NCBI GenBank assembly: GCA_011109175.1
Contig: RDEW01000013.1
Location: forward strand, 1 to 33,174
DNA: 33,174 nucleotides
Reading direction: 5' to 3'
Source of the DNA: Dicyema japonicum
Lineage: Eukaryota; Dicyemida; Rhombozoa; Dicyemidae
The translations under genes and the position numbers were made by a program. The first letter of the stretch is position 1, and every line of letters starts with the position of its first letter. Under the pieces are notes generated by a model. It saw only the letters and a program-made list of their open reading frames with translations, was not told the origin of the DNA and did no database searches. This document shows positions 1 through 33,174 of the stretch, piece by piece.

Positions 1-190
1 GTTTCAATTGTTACAGAATCAAAGTCCTTCAACGTCACCCAAATCCATCAAGAACCAGCATAAAAGGTAAGGACGTCCATTCATTGATGTTGTGGAGAAC
101 CCTCCAGTGAAGTGGGGAGAGCAAATAATCCTTTTAACATGCCAGAATGGCAGTGAGACATGTGGATCACATGACGCACTTTAGTAGAAA
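1..190 (-). repeat. Dispersed retroelement-end repeat, copy A (cut by window edge)
   Basis: This stretch aligns with 3881-4045. Shared blocks include ACGTCCAT, the run around CCCTCCAGTG, GAGCAAAT followed by GATCCTTTT or AATCCTTTT, and the run TGCCAG or TGCCGG ahead of GGCA. The better copy B ends in a stem-loop and an ATT-rich tail on its left, so I infer that the family reads on the minus strand and that this copy's 3' end lies beyond the left edge. No protein is recognised in it. Confidence 0.7.
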
Positions 191-3776: not shown

Positions 3777-3810
3777 TACTTATCCAGTCGATAACCGCCA
3801 CTTTCTTGCA

Positions 3811-4045
3811 ATTATTATTATTATTAATTAACCCGGATACACCGAGAAAGAAGTTAAAGTAACCAACTTATTAAGTGTATCCAGTTTCCACTTCTACAGA
3901 ACAGAGTCCATCCGGAATCAACATAAAGGGTAAAACGTCCATAGTTGCAGTTGTGGAAACCCCTCCAGTGGAGTGGGAAGAGCAAATGATCCTTTTTCAT
4001 GCCGGCCTGGCACTGGGCGTCACCTAGACAGGTGGATTCCTGCAA
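3811..4045 (-). repeat. Dispersed retroelement end, copy B, with stem-loop and ATT tail
   Basis: Reading on the minus strand, the element ends with GTGTATCC pairing to GGATACAC (GGATACAC at 3834, GTGTATCC about 40 bases to the right on plus) and then a TAA/ATT-type simple repeat at 3811-3825. The stem-loop region recurs at 22096-22150 and the body recurs at 1-190. A conserved 3' hairpin plus short tandem-repeat tail is typical of RTE-type LINEs and the SINEs they mobilise. Which of the two this is cannot be decided here. Confidence 0.65.
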
Positions 4046-16090: not shown

Positions 16091-16531
16091 GAGGCAATTT
16101 TGGATCCTATATTAATTTGCGGCGCAGAATCATGGACATTGAAAAAGGCGGATAGGCGAAGAATTAATGCTTTTGAGTTGTGGTGCTGGAGGAGGTTACT
16201 AAGAATCCCTTGGACTTCCAAAGTAACAACCATCAATGTACTCAAACGGGTAGAGACTGACATTTCGCTAGAAAAAAGAATCGTAAAACACAGATTGGCG
16301 TTCTTTGAGCATGTTGTCCGCTCTGATTCACTGGAAAGAACCATTATGCTGAGCAATATTACTGGGAAGAGAAGACCTGGCCGACCAAGGACTCGGTGGC
16401 TATCCACGATGGAAGACGTCACGGGAATGCCTATATCATGGCTACTCCAAATTGCAACGGATCGGGGAGAGTGGAGGAAACTCGTTCATGAGATCTCCAA
16501 GGGTCGGACACGACTAAATTGGACAACATAA
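16091..16531 (+). pseudogene. C-terminal domain of an RTE/BovB-type LINE polyprotein
   Basis: The frame encodes about 143 residues from 16100 (a non-ATG position, so the true start is upstream and lost), ending at TAA 16529-16531. ESWTLKKADRRRINAFELWC, then WRRLLRIPW, then LAFFEHVVRSD, then GKRRPGRPRTRW are hallmarks of the post-RT C-terminal domain of RTE-type elements often annotated as endonuclease-reverse transcriptase. It has no internal stop and is better kept than its neighbours. The RT is absent, consistent with a 5'-truncated insertion. An imperfect repeat of TTGGACAA and ATAACATA follows the stop and may be the tail. It is a different family from the RTE at 25661-28662. Confidence 0.88.
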
Positions 16532-19690: not shown

Positions 19691-20104
19691 ATTAACATAC
19701 AGTTATGAATTGTTAGCACACATGGAAGGATTGAACCAATATAGCAGAATATCGTTGTATTTTTCGGGAAAACTATTTATTGGAATCGTTAGAATTCATT
19801 TCAAACAGATTTCGCTGTTAATCGGTAAATCATTAAGTAATAATAACAGAGGATATTATGAATTTGATTAAATCGTTCAGACGAAAAAAGACAAAATCTA
19901 AAAAAAAGTCACAATTATGTTCAGAAATTCGTTATATTGACTTTGATATAGAAGATCTTCCCAATATAGTATTATATTATTTAATATTTAGTCAATTTCA
20001 GGTTGTTCTGNTGGTGTGCATGGTTGATTCTGTTAAACGAAGCATTAATTTTTAAATAACTAAACCCGTACCATGCATCCTCTGGTAAATCAATAAACGA
20101 TGAT
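19691..20104. other. Unresolved join between SSU and LSU pieces, with an N at 20011
   Basis: AT-rich sequence holding no 5.8S, ITS or first half of the LSU that I can recognise. Just after the N, GGTGTGCATGG may echo the GGTGGTGCATGG of the 18S 3' domain. The open frame across 19858-20055 contains the N and has no coding support. Confidence 0.45.
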
Positions 20105-21485
20105 AAAGGAATTCGGCAAAATAGATCTGTACCTTCGGTAGAAGGAATGGCTATACGGGTTGAGTCTATATTGTTCTATTTCTGTTAATCCAGTTTGATA
20201 TTCCTTGATATAGAAGGGGTAGAACTGGCATTAAAAAGCCGTAGCCTTTGACGGTTTTTACGCAGTGTGATTTCTACCAGTGCATTAATTTTAGCGTGAA
20301 GAGAATCATTTACGCACTGGTAGACGGCGGGAGAAACTATATGATTCTCGTAAGTTGTCCGAGTGCCTCGTAATTTAATTGATGACGCACATAAATGGAT
20401 TAACGAGATTTCCATTGTCCCTATCAGCACTCTAGCGAAATTACAGCCAGAGTAATGGGCCTGCGAAATAAGGGTGAATGACCCTTTTGCGCTTGAACTC
20501 TAGATTGGCATTGTAAGAGGACATTGATATAGTGTTGATGGGAATTGATCTATAGACGACAATTTGAAATCACTCCACAGTCATCTTCTTACTAATTTAT
20601 TAATGCTTTACTATCCGCCAGGAAGGTTATACCGCAAGCCCTAAATGGGTGGTTCAGATCCGAAAACAGTGTCATTTGAGAGTTTAGCTAGGGTGGTAAA
20701 TCTTCAAAACGATAACGAAGGTTCTAAAGGTGCGCTCAGGCGTAATAAAAATCTGGCATGGAGCGAAAATGTAAAAGTTTGCATTATTTGCATGTTCAGT
20801 TCGTATGAAAAACTCGAAAGCGTAACCTATCGATCCTTTTACTTTTAAAAACTTTAAGCTATAGGTCACAGAAAAATAACCACAGGAATACAATTGGCTT
20901 TTGGCGCCCGAGCGTACATAACAAAGGTGCTTTTTGATCTTTCGATGTTGGCTCTTACTATCATTTCAAAGCATAAATCGTAAAGTGTAGGATATTCACC
21001 TACTAACAGGGAACGTGAGTTGAGTTTAAACCATCGTGAGATAGGTTAGTTTTACTCTACTGATTTGGTGTCGTTGCAACAGTAATTCTGCAAATTACGT
21101 GAGGAACTGCAGAGTCAGAAATTTTATTCATGCACTTGACTGAAAAGTCAGTGGTGCGAAGCTATCCTCTTAAAGATAACTGGACGCATCTAAACTAGGA
21201 TCTTGACTGGAAGTAACGACATTGTGCAGTGCACTACTATAGAAAGAATATGCTTTTATCTTGGTATCGAGGTTTTCCCCAAAAGTATATGTGCTTCAAT
21301 ACATTGGTGGTGTACTCTAATCTTGGTTTAGGCATTCATTTGAGGCATTATTATTGATTATTAAACAGTGCAGTAAAATTAATTTATCAACAGATTTGTG
21401 TCTCTAATTGTCTAGAGTGCGATAGCTAGTGTGTTGGCTGTGTTATTCACACAAGATTTGGTTAGAGAGTATCACCTGTTATAAA
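20105..21485 (+). rRNA. Large-subunit (28S) rRNA, 3' half (domains V-VI), degenerate (pseudogene)
   Basis: Ordered landmarks of the eukaryotic LSU: GGCAAAATAGATCTGTACC near 20116, GCAGTGTGATTTCTACC at 20272-20288, GACGGCGGGAG at 20323, AATGGATTAACGAGATT at 20394-20410, TTTTTGATC and TTCGATGTTGGCTC at 20930-20956, AGGGAACGTGAG at 21008-21019, TCGTGAGATAGGTTAGTTTT at 21034-21053, and AGTCAGTGGTGCGAAGCTA at 21146-21164. Bases that never vary in working ribosomes are altered. The peptidyl-transferase loop (CACAGGGATAACTGGC in the gene) reads CACAGGAATACAATTGGC at 20881-20898 with two extra bases. The sarcin-ricin loop AGTACGAGAGGA reads ATTACGTGAGGA at 21094-21105. CTCTTAAGGTAGC is lost near 20345-20360. 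The 3' limit is approximate. Confidence 0.9.
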
Positions 21486-21898: not shown

Positions 21899-22082
21899 AT
21901 TCGTTTGAAGGTTCCACGCAGGCTGTGAGTCAACTCGCCTGGAAATAACATGTAATAAATATTATTTTTCCACACTTCATATTAGGTATACGAGGATTAT
22001 GGAAGCAAAGATAGGATTTTCCCCCATGGAGTCCGTACATACGACCCCCTACTTGTTATGACAAATTCCTGAATGTGTGTAC

Positions 22083-22179
22083 ATTATTTATTTATTAAGC
22101 CCGGATACACCGAGAAAGAAGTAAAGTAAACAACTAATTAAGTGTATCCAGTTTCCACTTTTACAAAAATAGAGTCCAT
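22083..22179 (-). repeat. Dispersed retroelement 3' end, copy C
   Basis: CCCGGATACACCGAGAAAG, then AAGTAAA and AACTAATTAAGTGTATCC, then AGTTTCCACTT matches 3831-3900 closely, with the same GGATACAC/GTGTATCC stem-loop. It is preceded on the plus strand by a TTTA/TTA tail. The remainder of the family seen in copies A and B is cut off after about 22179, so only the minus-strand 3' end is present. Confidence 0.75.
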
Positions 22180-22850
22180 ATTTTTATTTTTTAAGCATTA
22201 TCATGTAAATTTACATCTAAACATTTAAGGCAGTATAAAAATTTGAGGGAGAATTTTTTAATCGACGTCTTTATGTTTTTCAAAGAAAGTTATAGCTTGT
22301 TTTCATTCAACTATTAAAAAATAATCGATAATAAAGAGGATTGCCTGTCCGATCTAGTATGCTGTACCAAAATGTACTTATATTTGATGTCCAACTTTTT
22401 TGAGATCTTCAACACGTATAATTCTGCTACGGAAAAAGTTGTTAAGACGGTTTCAGTTTATTTAATTTAAAAGAAAGTTAGTAGAACTGTTGTTGAAAAG
22501 AGAGTACTTTTGCTTTTCTGGAAAGAAAATTGTAGTAATCTGATTACCTTATTCTGGAAATTAGTGAAATATCTAGTCTTTTGTCATCTCCTTAGGTGGA
22601 ATCTTCTCTTGTAAAATTAGACTTGTGAAGATATGACAGGTTGATCTGAAATTGTACATTAAAAGTTTTTTTTTCCAATTCTAATGTCAACAATTCAACG
22701 CTTAAGGATCTTGATTACAATCTATTTGATATCGTCGGATTCTTTCGAACCATCATAATTTTTTCTCTGGTCGAATTTTGCACCCAGTCCGTCAATACGT
22801 TTGTTAGTGTAAAAGACATCATATTGTGGTGAAGCAGATTGTTCCTTTTT
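22180..22850. other. No recognisable gene
   Basis: AT-rich sequence with stops in all frames. No motif seen. Confidence 0.6.
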
Positions 22851-25701: not shown

Positions 25702-28628
25702 TCAATTAAGGTTCCCTTGTGCCGCGCCGGCCACCCTTTGCACCAATCGCATCCAAAGGCCTCTCCGTTTCGCAAGATCTCTTAGTTCATCGAGGTCATC
25801 CATTGTTTTCAACTCCCTGCCTATGGCTTTTAGGTCCTCATTTAGCGTGATAGGTAAGGTTGTTCTAGGCCTTCCTCGGAATGATTTTGTTTTTTCCATG
25901 AAATATTCATCTATTACGTGATTTGCCGGGACATCCAGGTCCATCCTCAGAATGTGACCGAACAGTCTCCATCTCGATCTTCTGATTTCCATGGATAATG
26001 GTTCTGTTTTGCTCAACTTATATAATTGTTCGTTTTTGATCTTCATTTTGTAGTGAATATTAAGTGCCTTCCGAAGCATACTGCGGTCGAAACTGTCAAT
26101 AGACTCCATTGCCCGTTTAGACAAACCCCATGTCCCACAGTTATATATTAGGATGGGCACAACAAAGTATTTGTATATCATAAGCTTTATTTTTCCACAA
26201 AGTCTTCTTCCCGAACTCCATATTTTAGATAGGCTTCTGAAAGCACCAGATGCAAGGATTTTCCGTCGAGCTACATCTTCCTCGTCCCCAAGAGCGATCC
26301 GACCTTCTTATGTCTTCTCCACGTCTCGTCGGATATCCTCTCTGCACGGCTGAATGATGTAAATTCCGTTTTGTCAGTGTTTATCTTCAAGAACCATTTT
26401 TGGAAAATGTTAGGAAGATGTTCGTTTATGTACTTGAGAAATTCAGAATCATCCGATACAAAGTCCAGATCGTCTGCGTAAATCAACTCATAATATTGTC
26501 CTTTAATGGATAATCTGAAATCCCTCAGTGCAGCCTCAAGATAAATAATAAATAGAATAGGAGACAACGAATCCCCTTGTGGAACTCCCCGAGTGGTTTT
26601 AAAAAAATTGGAAGCGGTATTTCCGATTTTGACAGCCAGGTGAGTATCTTCTAGGAGCAAGGAAATAATTCTAACATCATCCGTGTCTAGAAATGTATTC
26701 AGAATGTTAATAAGTAGTCCCCTGTGTACAGAGTCGAATGCACGACTCATGTCGATCCCCAGAACTTCTATGCATTTTTTGTATTTCTGACATATAGCGC
26801 CAGACCATCTGTGCGTCCATACTATGTCGGCGGTTGATCTTTTTTCCCTGAAACCGCTTTGTCCAGGCGATAAGAATTTGTCGACTTTCCCTTTGATTCG
26901 ATTTAATACAATGATAGAGAGGGTTTTCCGTAAGACCGATAATAGAATTATTGGTCTTAGACTGTTTGCGGGACCTCTAGGTTTCCCAGGTTTTGGTATT
27001 GGAATTAGCCATCCTCTCCCAATTCCAAGATCGTTTTTGTCTTCAAATGCTTTATTGAGTATGATGGTGATTATTTCACCCAATTCAGTGGGTCCACATT
27101 TTATTAACTCTGCAGGTATATTATCAGGACCAGCCGCTTTCCTGTAGTTTAGTTTTCCTATTGCCTTGATAGTTTCCGCGATAATAATGGGGCAGTTAAG
27201 AGGAGCCGTTGATGTTATTGGAGATTTGTTTTCAATTTCTTGATTGTTAAAGATGTCATAGTAGTGTGAAGAGACTATGTTCGCCTTTTCAATAACATTC
27301 AATACTGATCGTCCATGTTGGTCGTGAATAACAATATTCCCTGGTCGTTTCTTTTTGCTAATAATCCGAATGGCTTTGAACATTTTGGATCCGTTCTTAT
27401 ATTTCTTGATTTCATCGACCTGTTCCTCCACTTCCTTTTTTACTTGATATTTTTGAAGTTTTTTGATTTTTGTTAAAATTGAGTTACGAACTATCCTTAG
27501 CTCTTTTTTTAGACTCGGTATATTTGAATTATTAATTCTAATCCTCAAATTCTTTTGTTCTGAAGATAAGTATGATATTTCTTCGTTGTTATATTTGAAT
27601 TTGTTTTTGTGAGTAGTCCCCAAAACCAACGACGCGGTATTCTTCATTGCAACTCCAACGTCATTCCACAAATCCTGTGCACTATTGTTTGTATTCATCT
27701 TGCTTAATTCCTTTCTGAGTTTTTCGCCATACTCTTTCATCTTTATTTCATTGCTTATTAGAGTTTCTGTATCCAATCTTTCGAATTCCGTTTTTCCATA
27801 TCTTCCAGGTTTGTACAAACTTCCCAAAGAGAACCGAGTGATCACCAATTTGTGATCACTTGATGTTTCAAGCCCATCGTATGATCTCGAGTTTCGTATT
27901 AGGTTTTTGTTCCTTCTTCTGCACAAGATATAATCAATTTGATTATATATTTTAATCAAGTTGCCATTTTTGTCCTTTCGTGAACCAGTCCAGGTAGTTT
28001 TATGTCTTGCTGGGTGTTCAAAAGCAGTGTTCGTAATAAATAAGTTGTAGGATTCGCAGAATTGAACCAATGAGACACCAGAGGAATTTCGACGATTCCG
28101 AGCATGTGATCCAATACAAGTCTCCCCATTCCGTACTTTACCAACTCTGGCATTCCAGTCTCCACCAATAAACGTCAGATATGACGACGAAAGTGAGTCA
28201 TATGTCCCTGTCAAACATGAGTAAAACGCACCAAGTTCTTCAGGATTGGCATCAGCCCGGACAGCGGTCGGAGCATAAACATTGACGATAGAAATAACAG
28301 AGTTGGGCTTTGTTCCAAACTTCAGTTGCATGACTGCAATACGATCCGAGACAGCCCATACGCGTGTCACACGGTCGTAAAGATCCCTGTGAACCGCAAA
28401 TCCAAGACCATAATGTCGGCAGTCAGAGTCCAAAGTGATCATGTAGTAATCATCAAATTTCGTAATAGAATATGCTGTAATCTTTGTCTCTTGAATGCAG
28501 CAAATACTGACACCATGGATAGATAAATCACGTGCGAGTTGATGTTTTTTGGTGATGAACTTCAAGCCTCGAGTGTTGAAAGTACCAAGAGAGAATGGGC
28601 AACGGGTAATTAAGCGCCAAGAAGACAT
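25702..28628 (-). CDS. RTE-type endonuclease-reverse transcriptase, one frameshift
   Basis: The ATG at 28628 (MSSWRLIT) is the first methionine after an upstream stop and begins a frame of 785 codons. The APE-type endonuclease fills about residues 13-280: FNTRG, QETK, NVYAPT, GDWNAR, DYILCRRR and SSDHKL supply the Asn, Glu, Asp and His catalytic set. The RT follows: KAAGPDNIPAELIK, PIPKPG, SGFREKRST, motif A GIDMSRAFDSV, motif B GVPQGDSLSP and motif C IYADDLD, all catalytic aspartates intact. The reading then breaks at a C-run on plus (26284-26287); the next frame continues without other damage through GTWGLSKRAMESID, RWRLFGHILRMD and GRPRTTLP to the stop at 25702. One missing base would explain the break. 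About 975 residues in total, normal for RTE. It is damaged or contains a sequencing error in a homopolymer. Confidence 0.92.
26284..26287 (-). other. Frameshift site in the RTE polyprotein
   Basis: Up to this run of four Cs (Gs on the coding strand) the frame is that of the RT; directly after it the frame one base off continues with GDEEDVARRKILASGAF and the C-terminal domain. The older RTE fragment near 18025 has the comparable RKILATIALKS, which confirms that the second frame is the ancestral one. Confidence 0.8.
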
Positions 28629-28671
28629 ATTTTCAAAGAGGGACGTCACCACCTCAACCAAAAATAGCTAT

Positions 28672-31640: not shown

Positions 31641-31984
31641 GTATTGAGAATTTCTGTCAAGTCCTTAGGAATCAGCTTTTAAAGTAATACTTGAGACGTG
31701 ACTACATACTTCCAGTTAAAACTGCTTATTTTCTATATATTTGTTAAATGTGAGAAAGAAGGCTTTCCAAGCTCTTCTTGAATGTTGTGTCTGAAGAGAA
31801 ACAACATTCTCTTCATTTTTTGGGGTTATACTGGCTACTTTGGTTTACAAATGCTAGGAAAACATGTGCGTGTTAGCGTGGTGTCAAGTGGCTCACTGGA
31901 AAAGCTGTCACCCATTCCTAATTGGAACAAAAGAGCCTCATTCCTCCCCCATCTAAATTGACTTGCATTTGGGATGATTCCCCA

Positions 31985-32050
31985 GACTTATGTTCAAAAC
32001 TTATGTTGTGTGGAGACATTGAAAGCAATCCAGGCCCTCATGAAAACTGA
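31985..32050 (+). pseudogene. 2A-type ribosome-skipping peptide at LINE N-terminus
   Basis: The frame reads DLCSKLMLCGDIESNPGP. It contains the full D-(V/I)-E-x-N-P-G-P consensus and the preceding Leu-rich stretch with Gly before the Asp, as in 2A peptides that make ribosomes skip a peptide bond between the last Gly and Pro. 2A sequences are known near the N-terminus of certain APE-type non-LTR retrotransposons, where they separate the leader from the endonuclease-RT protein. Here the frame ends with HEN and a TGA at 32048-32050, and the endonuclease starts one base back in the next frame, so a single small indel separates them. Function is inferred from the motif only. Confidence 0.8.
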
Positions 32051-32600
32051 CTATTCTACAACTCAATGTGAACGGTATCAGAAGGAAGATCCTAGAACTT
32101 CTGGCATTCCTTGCAGAAATGAACGCTGATTTTGGACTAATCCAAATTATCACTAACCACTCCAACACCTTGCTTTTCCGGATACACGGTGATCCGATAC
32201 ACGGTGCCTTTAACGACATAAGCCCTCAGGTTTCAAACCTTTTGGACTCAGATTGTACTTTGGAGCAGATCACTATTAAGTTTCAATTATTCTCTTTTTT
32301 CTGGATCATTTTAGTCAATGTGTACATCCCTTCACAGGGGTCCTGTCCAACTTCCTATGTTCCCCAAATATTCCGCCTTTCCGGACTGAAAAATTTTTCT
32401 AATATGTAGCGATCTTATAAATCGTCATCCCTTGTGGCTAACTTCACATTCTGCCAACAACCGAGGTGAACTCTTTGCAAATGGCCATAGAGACATGATT
32501 GTCCCTAATGACCTAACGCCCATACAATAACTCCACTTAGGACCACATATGGTTGTGCATATATTTTTTCCAGTGACCTATATCTCTACATCTAAGAGGA
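32047..32600 (+). pseudogene. APE-type LINE endonuclease remnant
   Basis: LTILQLNVNGIRRKILELLAF opens the domain (the Asn after Leu is the first catalytic residue), MNADFGLIQIITNHSN stands where the family has IxxIQETK, so the catalytic Glu is lost. IILVNVYIPSQG near 32310 is the NVYxP strand. Then, in another frame, DLINRHPLW and ANNRGELFA near 32410-32480 match the GDFNaHHplWgs...NarGe.l part of Jockey-type endonucleases, with the GDFN itself gone. The SDH end is not seen. At least three frame changes are required. Confidence 0.82.
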
Positions 32601-33174
32601 CTTCGGCGGATCCGTATGCCCTAAGTCAAGTGAAAAAATTCAAGAATTATGGCAAGTCAGACTGGACAGGCTTTAGTAATTATGTCAATGATGTGTTGGT
32701 CAACCTTCAGTTGACGAGGCTGCAAAACTTATCAGTGAGGAAGATTTTGATTCCTCTCTCGTCATATACAAAATTTGTCCCTACTTTAAACTCACGCACC
32801 CTTCAGCTCATAAAACGAAGAGACCTTCTAAAACGATCCAAATTGATGGTCGCAAACTCCTTGGGAGCAATCAGAGGACTAAACAAGGAAACCAGTCTGA
32901 ACATTAGAGAACATGGAAAATGGATGTCGCCTACATAAAAAGAGCTCATCTTCCCAATTTTGGAGAACTCTAAAACAAGTCAACATCGAGTTGGAGACGC
33001 TCACGGGCAGTAATATCTAAAAAATGAATGCCATATACACCCAAACTTATTCATGAAACATTATGCTACAATCAGTTTTAAAACATTCTCAAAACAACTG
33101 ACATCAAGGTGAAAAAACCGAAGAAGAGCAATACCAGGAACTATTCTCAGAAAAAAGGTTCCTAGAAGCTATCA
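32549..33174 (+). pseudogene. LINE linker and start of RT
   Basis: The frame 32549-32938 holds KKFKNYGKSDWTGFSNYVND near 32640-32690 (family: adW..f...i...) and LIPLSSYTKFVPTLNSRTLQLIKRRDLL (family: iP.g......p.w......l...Rd.l). After frame changes, SSSSQFWRTLKQVN near 32945 and EEEQYQELFSEKRFLEAI at the very end match the run into the RT fingers. The RT catalytic motifs lie beyond the window. Confidence 0.7.

Follow-up and report, generated by a model that had tools for sequence, protein, structure and literature searches.

The window, by which we mean the whole stretch of 33,174 nucleotides analysed here (positions 1-33174 of contig C34 in a genome of 64.7 Mb and 191 contigs), carries towards its right end, judging by sequence comparison, the start of an APE-type LINE that is dead and comes from a group of related families in an animal genome. 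The best reading of these families is that they carry an L1Tc-type set of features, namely a putative HDV-like ribozyme, a 2A (StopGo) motif and a protein with endonuclease (EN) and reverse transcriptase (RT), in an animal and nearly without a 5' UTR. The host is regarded as an animal because its genome gives a Wnt match (E 1.4e-69) and 67 homeodomain matches, against 0 in 14 control genomes.

Positions 32000-32038 of the forward strand encode the motif LMLCGDIESNPGP, in which the sequence-only reading had seen a match to the full 2A consensus, and this holds: the degenerate 2A pattern GGNGAYNTNGARNNNAAYCCNGGNCC, with up to two mismatches allowed, has one match in the window, which is exact, whereas 100 shuffles gave a mean of 0.00. 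The 2A motif of the window copy is real. The expanded StopGo core, (D/G/C/N)(V/I)ExNPGP (PMC12846837), is present as DIESNPGP. The upstream part of the motif is rich in Leu and has CG at its end, with Asp at p12 and Ser at p15. Among 2A sequences there is an LLLLSG-like upstream class ending in (A/S/C)G, and KLMLCG of the window resembles this context in a by-eye comparison (PMC12846837); relatives have ILLLSG, LILLCG and ALILCG. The remains of the element are distributed as follows.

31870-31879, forward strand: 5'-terminal extension of the element, GTGTTAGCGT; the alignment with copy L003 begins here, and the flanks of the copies differ further upstream.
31880-31938, forward strand: remnant of an HDV-ribozyme-like 5' fold, which is supported across families and not by the window copy alone.
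31886-31999, forward strand: decayed leader frame, with AAG where relatives have ATG and TAA at 31919-31921, otherwise in the 2A frame (from translation and relatives).
32000-32038, forward strand: 2A (StopGo) motif LMLCGDIESNPGP (from translation and the pattern search against shuffles).
32044-32409, forward strand: start of an APE-type endonuclease in a frame other than that of 2A, with a stop at 32407-32409; the homologous stretch of relatives has Pfam endonuclease matches.
32048-32050, forward strand: TGA closing the 2A frame, three codons past NPGP (from translation).
32410-33174, forward strand: remaining EN and EN-RT linker, split over several frames and truncated where the window stops; as far as 32900 the DNA matches other copies.

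That the motif sits directly before an APE endonuclease, as had been claimed, is right for position and wrong for frame. The EN start, KLTILQLNVNGIRRK, lies at 32044, 5 nt past the motif, and in another frame (32015 and 32044 are 2 and 1 modulo 3, respectively); the EN frame also has TGA at 32041-32043, just ahead of EN. No Pfam match was obtained with the window pieces of the 2A element. The leader frame reads KWLTGKAVTHS*LEQKSLIPPPSKLTCIWDDSPDLCSK up to 2A. In several copies of the sister family F7 (F1-F14 are our own labels for families, assigned by motif and 5' sequence), ATGTTAGCGT takes the place of GTGTTAGCGT and provides a start codon for the 2A frame. Given the EN out of frame, the AAG in place of ATG and the TAA in the leader, the window copy is dead, a relic. 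Two relatives, L002 and L003, which are 77 and 74 per cent identical to 31841-32420, keep NPGP (in L002 as DIDSNPGP) out of frame with EN, and in a more distant decayed copy, L008 (DSGKNPGP), EN is likewise out of frame. At the junction between 2A and the downstream protein, 0/4 of these copies are in frame; NPGP is kept in 4/4 and the entire core in the window copy and L003.

The proposal that the element family used the motif finds its support in the wider group and not in the window copy. Genome-wide, the degenerate GDxExNPGP has 302 exact matches and its reversed control has 0. A sample of 71 different sites was taken, which is non-random and motif-chosen (25 via similarity to the window leader, the others first-listed motif matches and our own choice); 20 of them, pieces of 281 nt, were too short downstream, and 51 had at least 75 nt downstream and were assessable. 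A regex sort placed 36 of these 51 in frame into the EN start (12 of the 36 being near-identical copies of the single family F10), 8, including the window and L003, out of frame, and 7 in neither class; the regex is crude, since by eye two of the 7 (L026 and L056) seem to be in frame and two of the 8 (L031 and L084) are doubtful. Absence of NPGP or an out-of-frame motif in most copies, which the sequence-only reading had named as the outcome that would speak against it, was seen for the window copy and its near relatives (0/4 in frame) and not for the wider set (36/51). When F7 EN copies on contigs C1-C98 were found without use of the motif, 9 of 13 carried the motif in its exact form some 270-310 nt upstream in a by-hand comparison, the others being C12:48174, C23:132275, C88:810026 and C94:141590. 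The motif is also kept in frame in the nearby families L034, L039 and L046.

The domains that define an APE-type non-LTR element, endonuclease and RT, are present in the relatives, whose open frames match Pfam PF14529 and PF03372; for RT the match is PF00078. In L051, PF03372 begins 8 residues past the proline of the skip site. Two 3' stretches, L114 and L115 (F7 and F9), match RT, and the same two gave no Pfam match to RNase H. Neither L051 nor L063 is intact over its full length, as both change frame inside RT; a protein search with the open relative L051 scored 7995 candidates, none of which reached E 0.001. Predicted from the copies compared, the use of 2A by such elements is supported.

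The sequence common to the copies of a family mostly starts at a block such as CGTGGCGTCATGTGGTTCACC, and upstream of it the flanks mostly differ. The exceptions are three of the four F1 copies, which also have ATTTTCTC directly before the block, and the F10 pairs L021/L024 and L023/L029, which have longer common flanks, of the kind that a duplication leaves. The comparison covers families with several copies, F12 and F13 being represented by one each. Where the border is visible, the in-frame ATG is no more than about 10 nt away from it, or about 18 nt in F1 if ATTTTCTC is counted as part of the element. The first ~75 nt agree with an HDV-like double pseudoknot in the order P1-P2-P3-P1'-P4-P2'. 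By eye, P1 is found as GGCGTC/GGCGCT, ATCGTC/GACGAT, AATTTTC/GAAAATT, AATGTCA/TGGCATT, ATGACG/TGTCAT, AATGCC/GGTGTT and, with a U.U, GGTGTC/GTCACC, and P2 as TGGTTC/GAACCA, TGGCTC/GAGCCA, TGGTCT/AGACCA, CGGTTC/GAACCG and TGATCC/GGATCA; J1/2 is usually ATG, P3 is of the kind ACC/GGT, and P4 and an A-rich J4/2 follow. In the window remnant P1 pairs 31880-31885 with 31907-31912 (one U.U) and P2 pairs 31889-31894 with 31933-31938 (last pair lost), the P4 hairpin TTCC/GGAA occupies 31915-31927 and J4/2 is CAAAA at 31928-31932; no P3 is recognisable in it.

The fold was assessed on 16 representatives, comprising 15 LINE rows and one SINE-like row. The automatic best fit beat all of 60 shuffles in 10/16, and 1-2 of 60 shuffles reach it in F5, F9 and F11; the best fits that fail are those of L003 (22/60), F12 (22/60) and the window (5/60), where the automatic best fit differs from the assigned fold. 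Automatic P1 and P2 agree with the by-eye fold in 9/16, in some cases with a shift by one, and differ from it partly or wholly in F3, F5, both F8 rows, F9, F11 and F12. Covariation was scored on the 16 rows with the 5' strands dealt and the 3' strand free: P1 scores 210 against 177.0 ± 8.2 and P2 219 against 174.7 ± 8.6, and in both cases 0 of 20,000 permutations are as high. Related families are not independent, and reduced row sets were therefore used as well. With one row per distinct strand, the score is reached by 37 of 20,000 permutations for P1 (8 rows) and by 33 of 20,000 for P2 (6 rows), and for P4 by 8 of 20,000 (15 of the 16 rows, F9 being dropped as too short); for the distinct-strand and P4 tests three representatives were swapped (L011 for L003, L062 for L047 and L050 for L025). 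Among single copies of the window's own group, P4 TTCC/GGAA of F7 becomes TTAC/GTAA in L011 and L033, and P1 of L008, GGTGTC/GACACC, is by eye fully paired where F7 has U.U. An HDV-like double pseudoknot was thus found for the set of families, and not for the window copy alone.

In HDV-like ribozymes J4/2 follows the rule CNRA, beginning with the expected C. By eye, this C is present in most families (CAAA, CGAA, CTAA); it is lacking from F9, F10 and a copy of the SINE-like element, and the CNRA form is incomplete in F2, F3, F6 and F11. PMC3774820 names a catalytic C for HDV-like ribozymes. The by-eye search for P1.1 and for active-site residues of L3 gave no consistent pairing, and searches against Rfam HDV families, with E thresholds of 5 for 20 loci and 10 for 14 short loci, gave no match. 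In F1-F8 the sequence common to the copies extends some two to eleven nucleotides to the 5' side of the point where cleavage is predicted. These observations count against the ribozyme reading. A loose HDV descriptor, applied to all loci and the window, gave 115 fits, with 2A downstream only at L035, and is too permissive to count as evidence.

The same 5' end as in the LINEs is found in a SINE-like element of about 200 nt, which occurs in L025, L050 and L003. Its P1 is GGCGTCA/TGACGCC and its P2 TGATCC/GGATCA, and J4/2 reads CGAAAAA in L003 and L050 and TGAAAAA in L025. The first 20 nt have 422 exact matches in the genome (control 0), and a 23-nt internal word has 601 matches at up to two mismatches (control 0); these two counts are preferred over the 1,242 matches to the 20-nt word at up to two mismatches, because the latter also counts LINE 5' ends that are one or two bases off. 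In viral and prokaryotic collections the first 20 nt have 0 matches. Decayed or truncated copies of this element, the tail of which is a TAAA-like repeat, lie in the window at three places.

1-180, reverse strand: SINE-like copy.
About 3810-4036, reverse strand: SINE-like copy.
About 22077-22188, reverse strand: SINE-like copy.

Nineteen leaders, picked as the most readable, represent 12 families and the window. In 14/19 the frame that begins at an ATG close to the 5' end stays open as far as 2A, with 41-57 residues before the core; F6_L030, F9_L047, F13_L096, F14_L066 and the window are not open. The separate leader peptide that had been proposed is supported for relatives with open frames (14 of the 19 picked) and not for the window copy, which has no start codon, contains a stop and has EN out of frame. 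No domain was recognised in the leader. Certain peptide words are common to many leaders (MW(F/S)T, KRT and an L-rich end), and in most families J1/2 or P1 contains the start codon, usually as GTC-ATG-TGG in J1/2. Since the start codon falls within these elements of the fold, the shared words are RNA strands read as codons and not conserved protein. The block is also read in other frames, as MPRGSPVWWCC- in F10, MTLWFTK- in F11 and MLAWCHVAHQ- in part of F7; among the seven F7 copies with both 5' end and 2A, the upstream ATG is open in L013, L034, L046 and L058, and the J1/2 ATG is the one in L014, L085 and L090. The nature of the leader, which the first description had left unclear, is probably largely explained as a reading of the conserved, ribozyme-like 5' RNA; the rest of it varies.

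Two other observations concern the 2A-bearing copies. The F7-like L014 (C68:958908-959006, reverse strand), with GEVETNPGP, has a J1/2 ATG whose frame, with 236 aa from stop to stop, continues across the motif and reaches EN. A further 2A family with GDVEPNPGP is represented by L054 and L113 (C23:247226 and C94:305154), and in the 230-330 nt inspected upstream of it a recognisable 5' block is absent.

Taken jointly, these features are rather probably parts of one arrangement, in which an HDV-like 5' end contains a nearly leaderless AUG that opens the leader, and a 2A skip would release EN-RT. The 5' end of the RNA would be freed by self-cleavage, or transcription would begin there from an internal promoter. 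Translation would then initiate at the nearly leaderless AUG inside the fold, the ribosome would skip at NPG/P, and the EN-RT protein, whose EN begins a few residues past the skip site, would be freed with an almost native N-terminus. The upstream peptide would be mainly a by-product of placing the start codon within constrained RNA, and 2A would serve to strip it. The F7 copies with the upstream ATG (L013, L034, L046 and L058) fit this scheme least, because cleavage at P1 would remove that ATG; as their P1 contains a U.U, cleavage may have been abandoned in these copies. A more far-reaching version, which we put forward tentatively and hold to be somewhat less probable than its opposite, is that self-cleavage and translation start are merged in one RNA: the AUG would lie in the ribozyme core, the start of translation would melt the ribozyme and the intact ribozyme would hide the AUG, 2A would be there for stripping the ribozyme-encoded peptide, and the short element would exploit the same 5' module.

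The elements might instead be ordinary 2A-bearing LINEs whose 5' block is an internal DNA promoter only, with helices that arose by chance. Pr77 of L1Tc is itself also a promoter (PMC4748587), and its DPE word CGTG (there at +25 to +28) is present at the 5' end of many copies here (PMC4748587); the lack of any Rfam HDV match in the loci searched would also agree with a mere promoter. However, compensatory changes from family to family, as seen in P1, P2 and P4, are not expected of a promoter, and we regard this alternative as unlikely. It is similarly improbable that the leader is a functional protein, either a dual-targeting signal peptide (compare the 2A of sea urchin NLR) or a chaperone-like ORF1. 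In favour of a protein, besides the 14 open leaders among the 19 picked, are the changes at codon positions 1, 2 and 3 outside the ribozyme (12, 9 and 19 for F2-F3; 14, 5 and 16 for F1-F5; 12, 9 and 17 for F1-F2; 13, 10 and 16 for F1-F4; 19, 10 and 20 for F4-F5), where position 2 is lowest in all pairs, a coding-like pattern that is favoured by the protein-based alignment, which also takes in the 2A core up to its fourth residue. On the other hand, the open leaders have no residue that all of them share outside the ribozyme strands and 2A, the frame in which the conserved block is read varies (MWFT-, MPRGSPVWW-, MLAWCHVAH-, MTLWFT-), and by eye the hydrophobic residues adjoin 2A rather than the N-terminus.

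The last alternative concerns the window motif itself, which would be a remnant, decayed and unused in the subfamily of the window copy. The 0/4 junctions in frame agree with this, but NPGP in 4/4, the entire core in the window and L003, and the in-frame motifs of L034, L039 and L046 do not, and we consider such a remnant very unlikely.

The preferred L1Tc-type reading has its closest counterpart in L1Tc of Trypanosoma cruzi. In that element the first 77 nt contain both an HDV-like ribozyme and a promoter, and a 2A and an AP endonuclease are present as well (PMC4748587); its Pr77 is shared by short non-autonomous elements (PMC4035085, PMC8190864). The likeness to L1Tc (L1Tc/ingi clade; Pr77/L1TcRz, L1Tc2A) is one of features and not of sequence alignment, and comprises the 5'-terminal HDV-like fold of about 77 nt, 2A, AP endonuclease with RT, and short elements sharing the 5' end (PMC4748587, PMC4035085, PMC8190864). 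The differences are that the host here is an animal, that the two 3' stretches here have no RNase H match, and that the start codon here lies inside the fold, whereas L1Tc has a 5'-UTR (PMC4035085), which changes structure after cleavage (PMC4035085). The HDV-like ribozymes of R2, with P1 of 6-7 bp, P2 of at least 5 bp and variable P4, show a similar looseness in P1, P2 and P4 (PMC3774820); unlike R2, the element here is APE-type, has its start codon in J1/2 or P1, and was not seen in site-specific 28S insertion. PMC5972666 names elements of trypanosomes and sea urchins. The 2A of sea urchin NLR is also near the N-terminus, where 26 residues act as a signal sequence (PMC4981915), whereas the leaders here have 41-57 residues before the core and by eye no N-terminal hydrophobic stretch.

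In the open-licence literature searched, an HDV-like ribozyme and 2A together in an animal LINE were not found, and the best reading of the sequences would place the ribozyme-plus-2A set known from trypanosome L1Tc in an animal genome. Odon et al. 2013 reportedly described animal APE-type LINEs with a 2A that lies N-terminally and precedes the endonuclease, which is also its position here. A possible reason for an N-terminal 2A in LINEs is the removal of a peptide that is dictated by RNA and not by protein. The arrangement raises the question of how a ribosome starts on a nearly leaderless, folded 5' end, and with about a dozen divergent families, covariation, cleavage and skipping are directly testable.

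The window holds several other features. On the reverse strand, 26271-28661 holds an open frame of 796 aa that matches endonuclease and RT (PF03372, PF00078), a much better-preserved LINE of another kind, near which the window has no 2A pattern; 25702-26181 (reverse strand) and 16100-16528 (forward strand) resemble by eye the 3' parts of LINEs of this type. A match to eukaryotic LSU rRNA at 20089-21381 (forward strand; last 1.5 kb of the model, 553 bits) is possibly a divergent or decayed piece of 28S. Finally, 1139-1438 and 2409-2708 form a direct repeat of 300 nt with 99 per cent identity and a spacing of 1270, with a second pair at 2295/3558, and the repeat is perhaps a recent tandem duplication.
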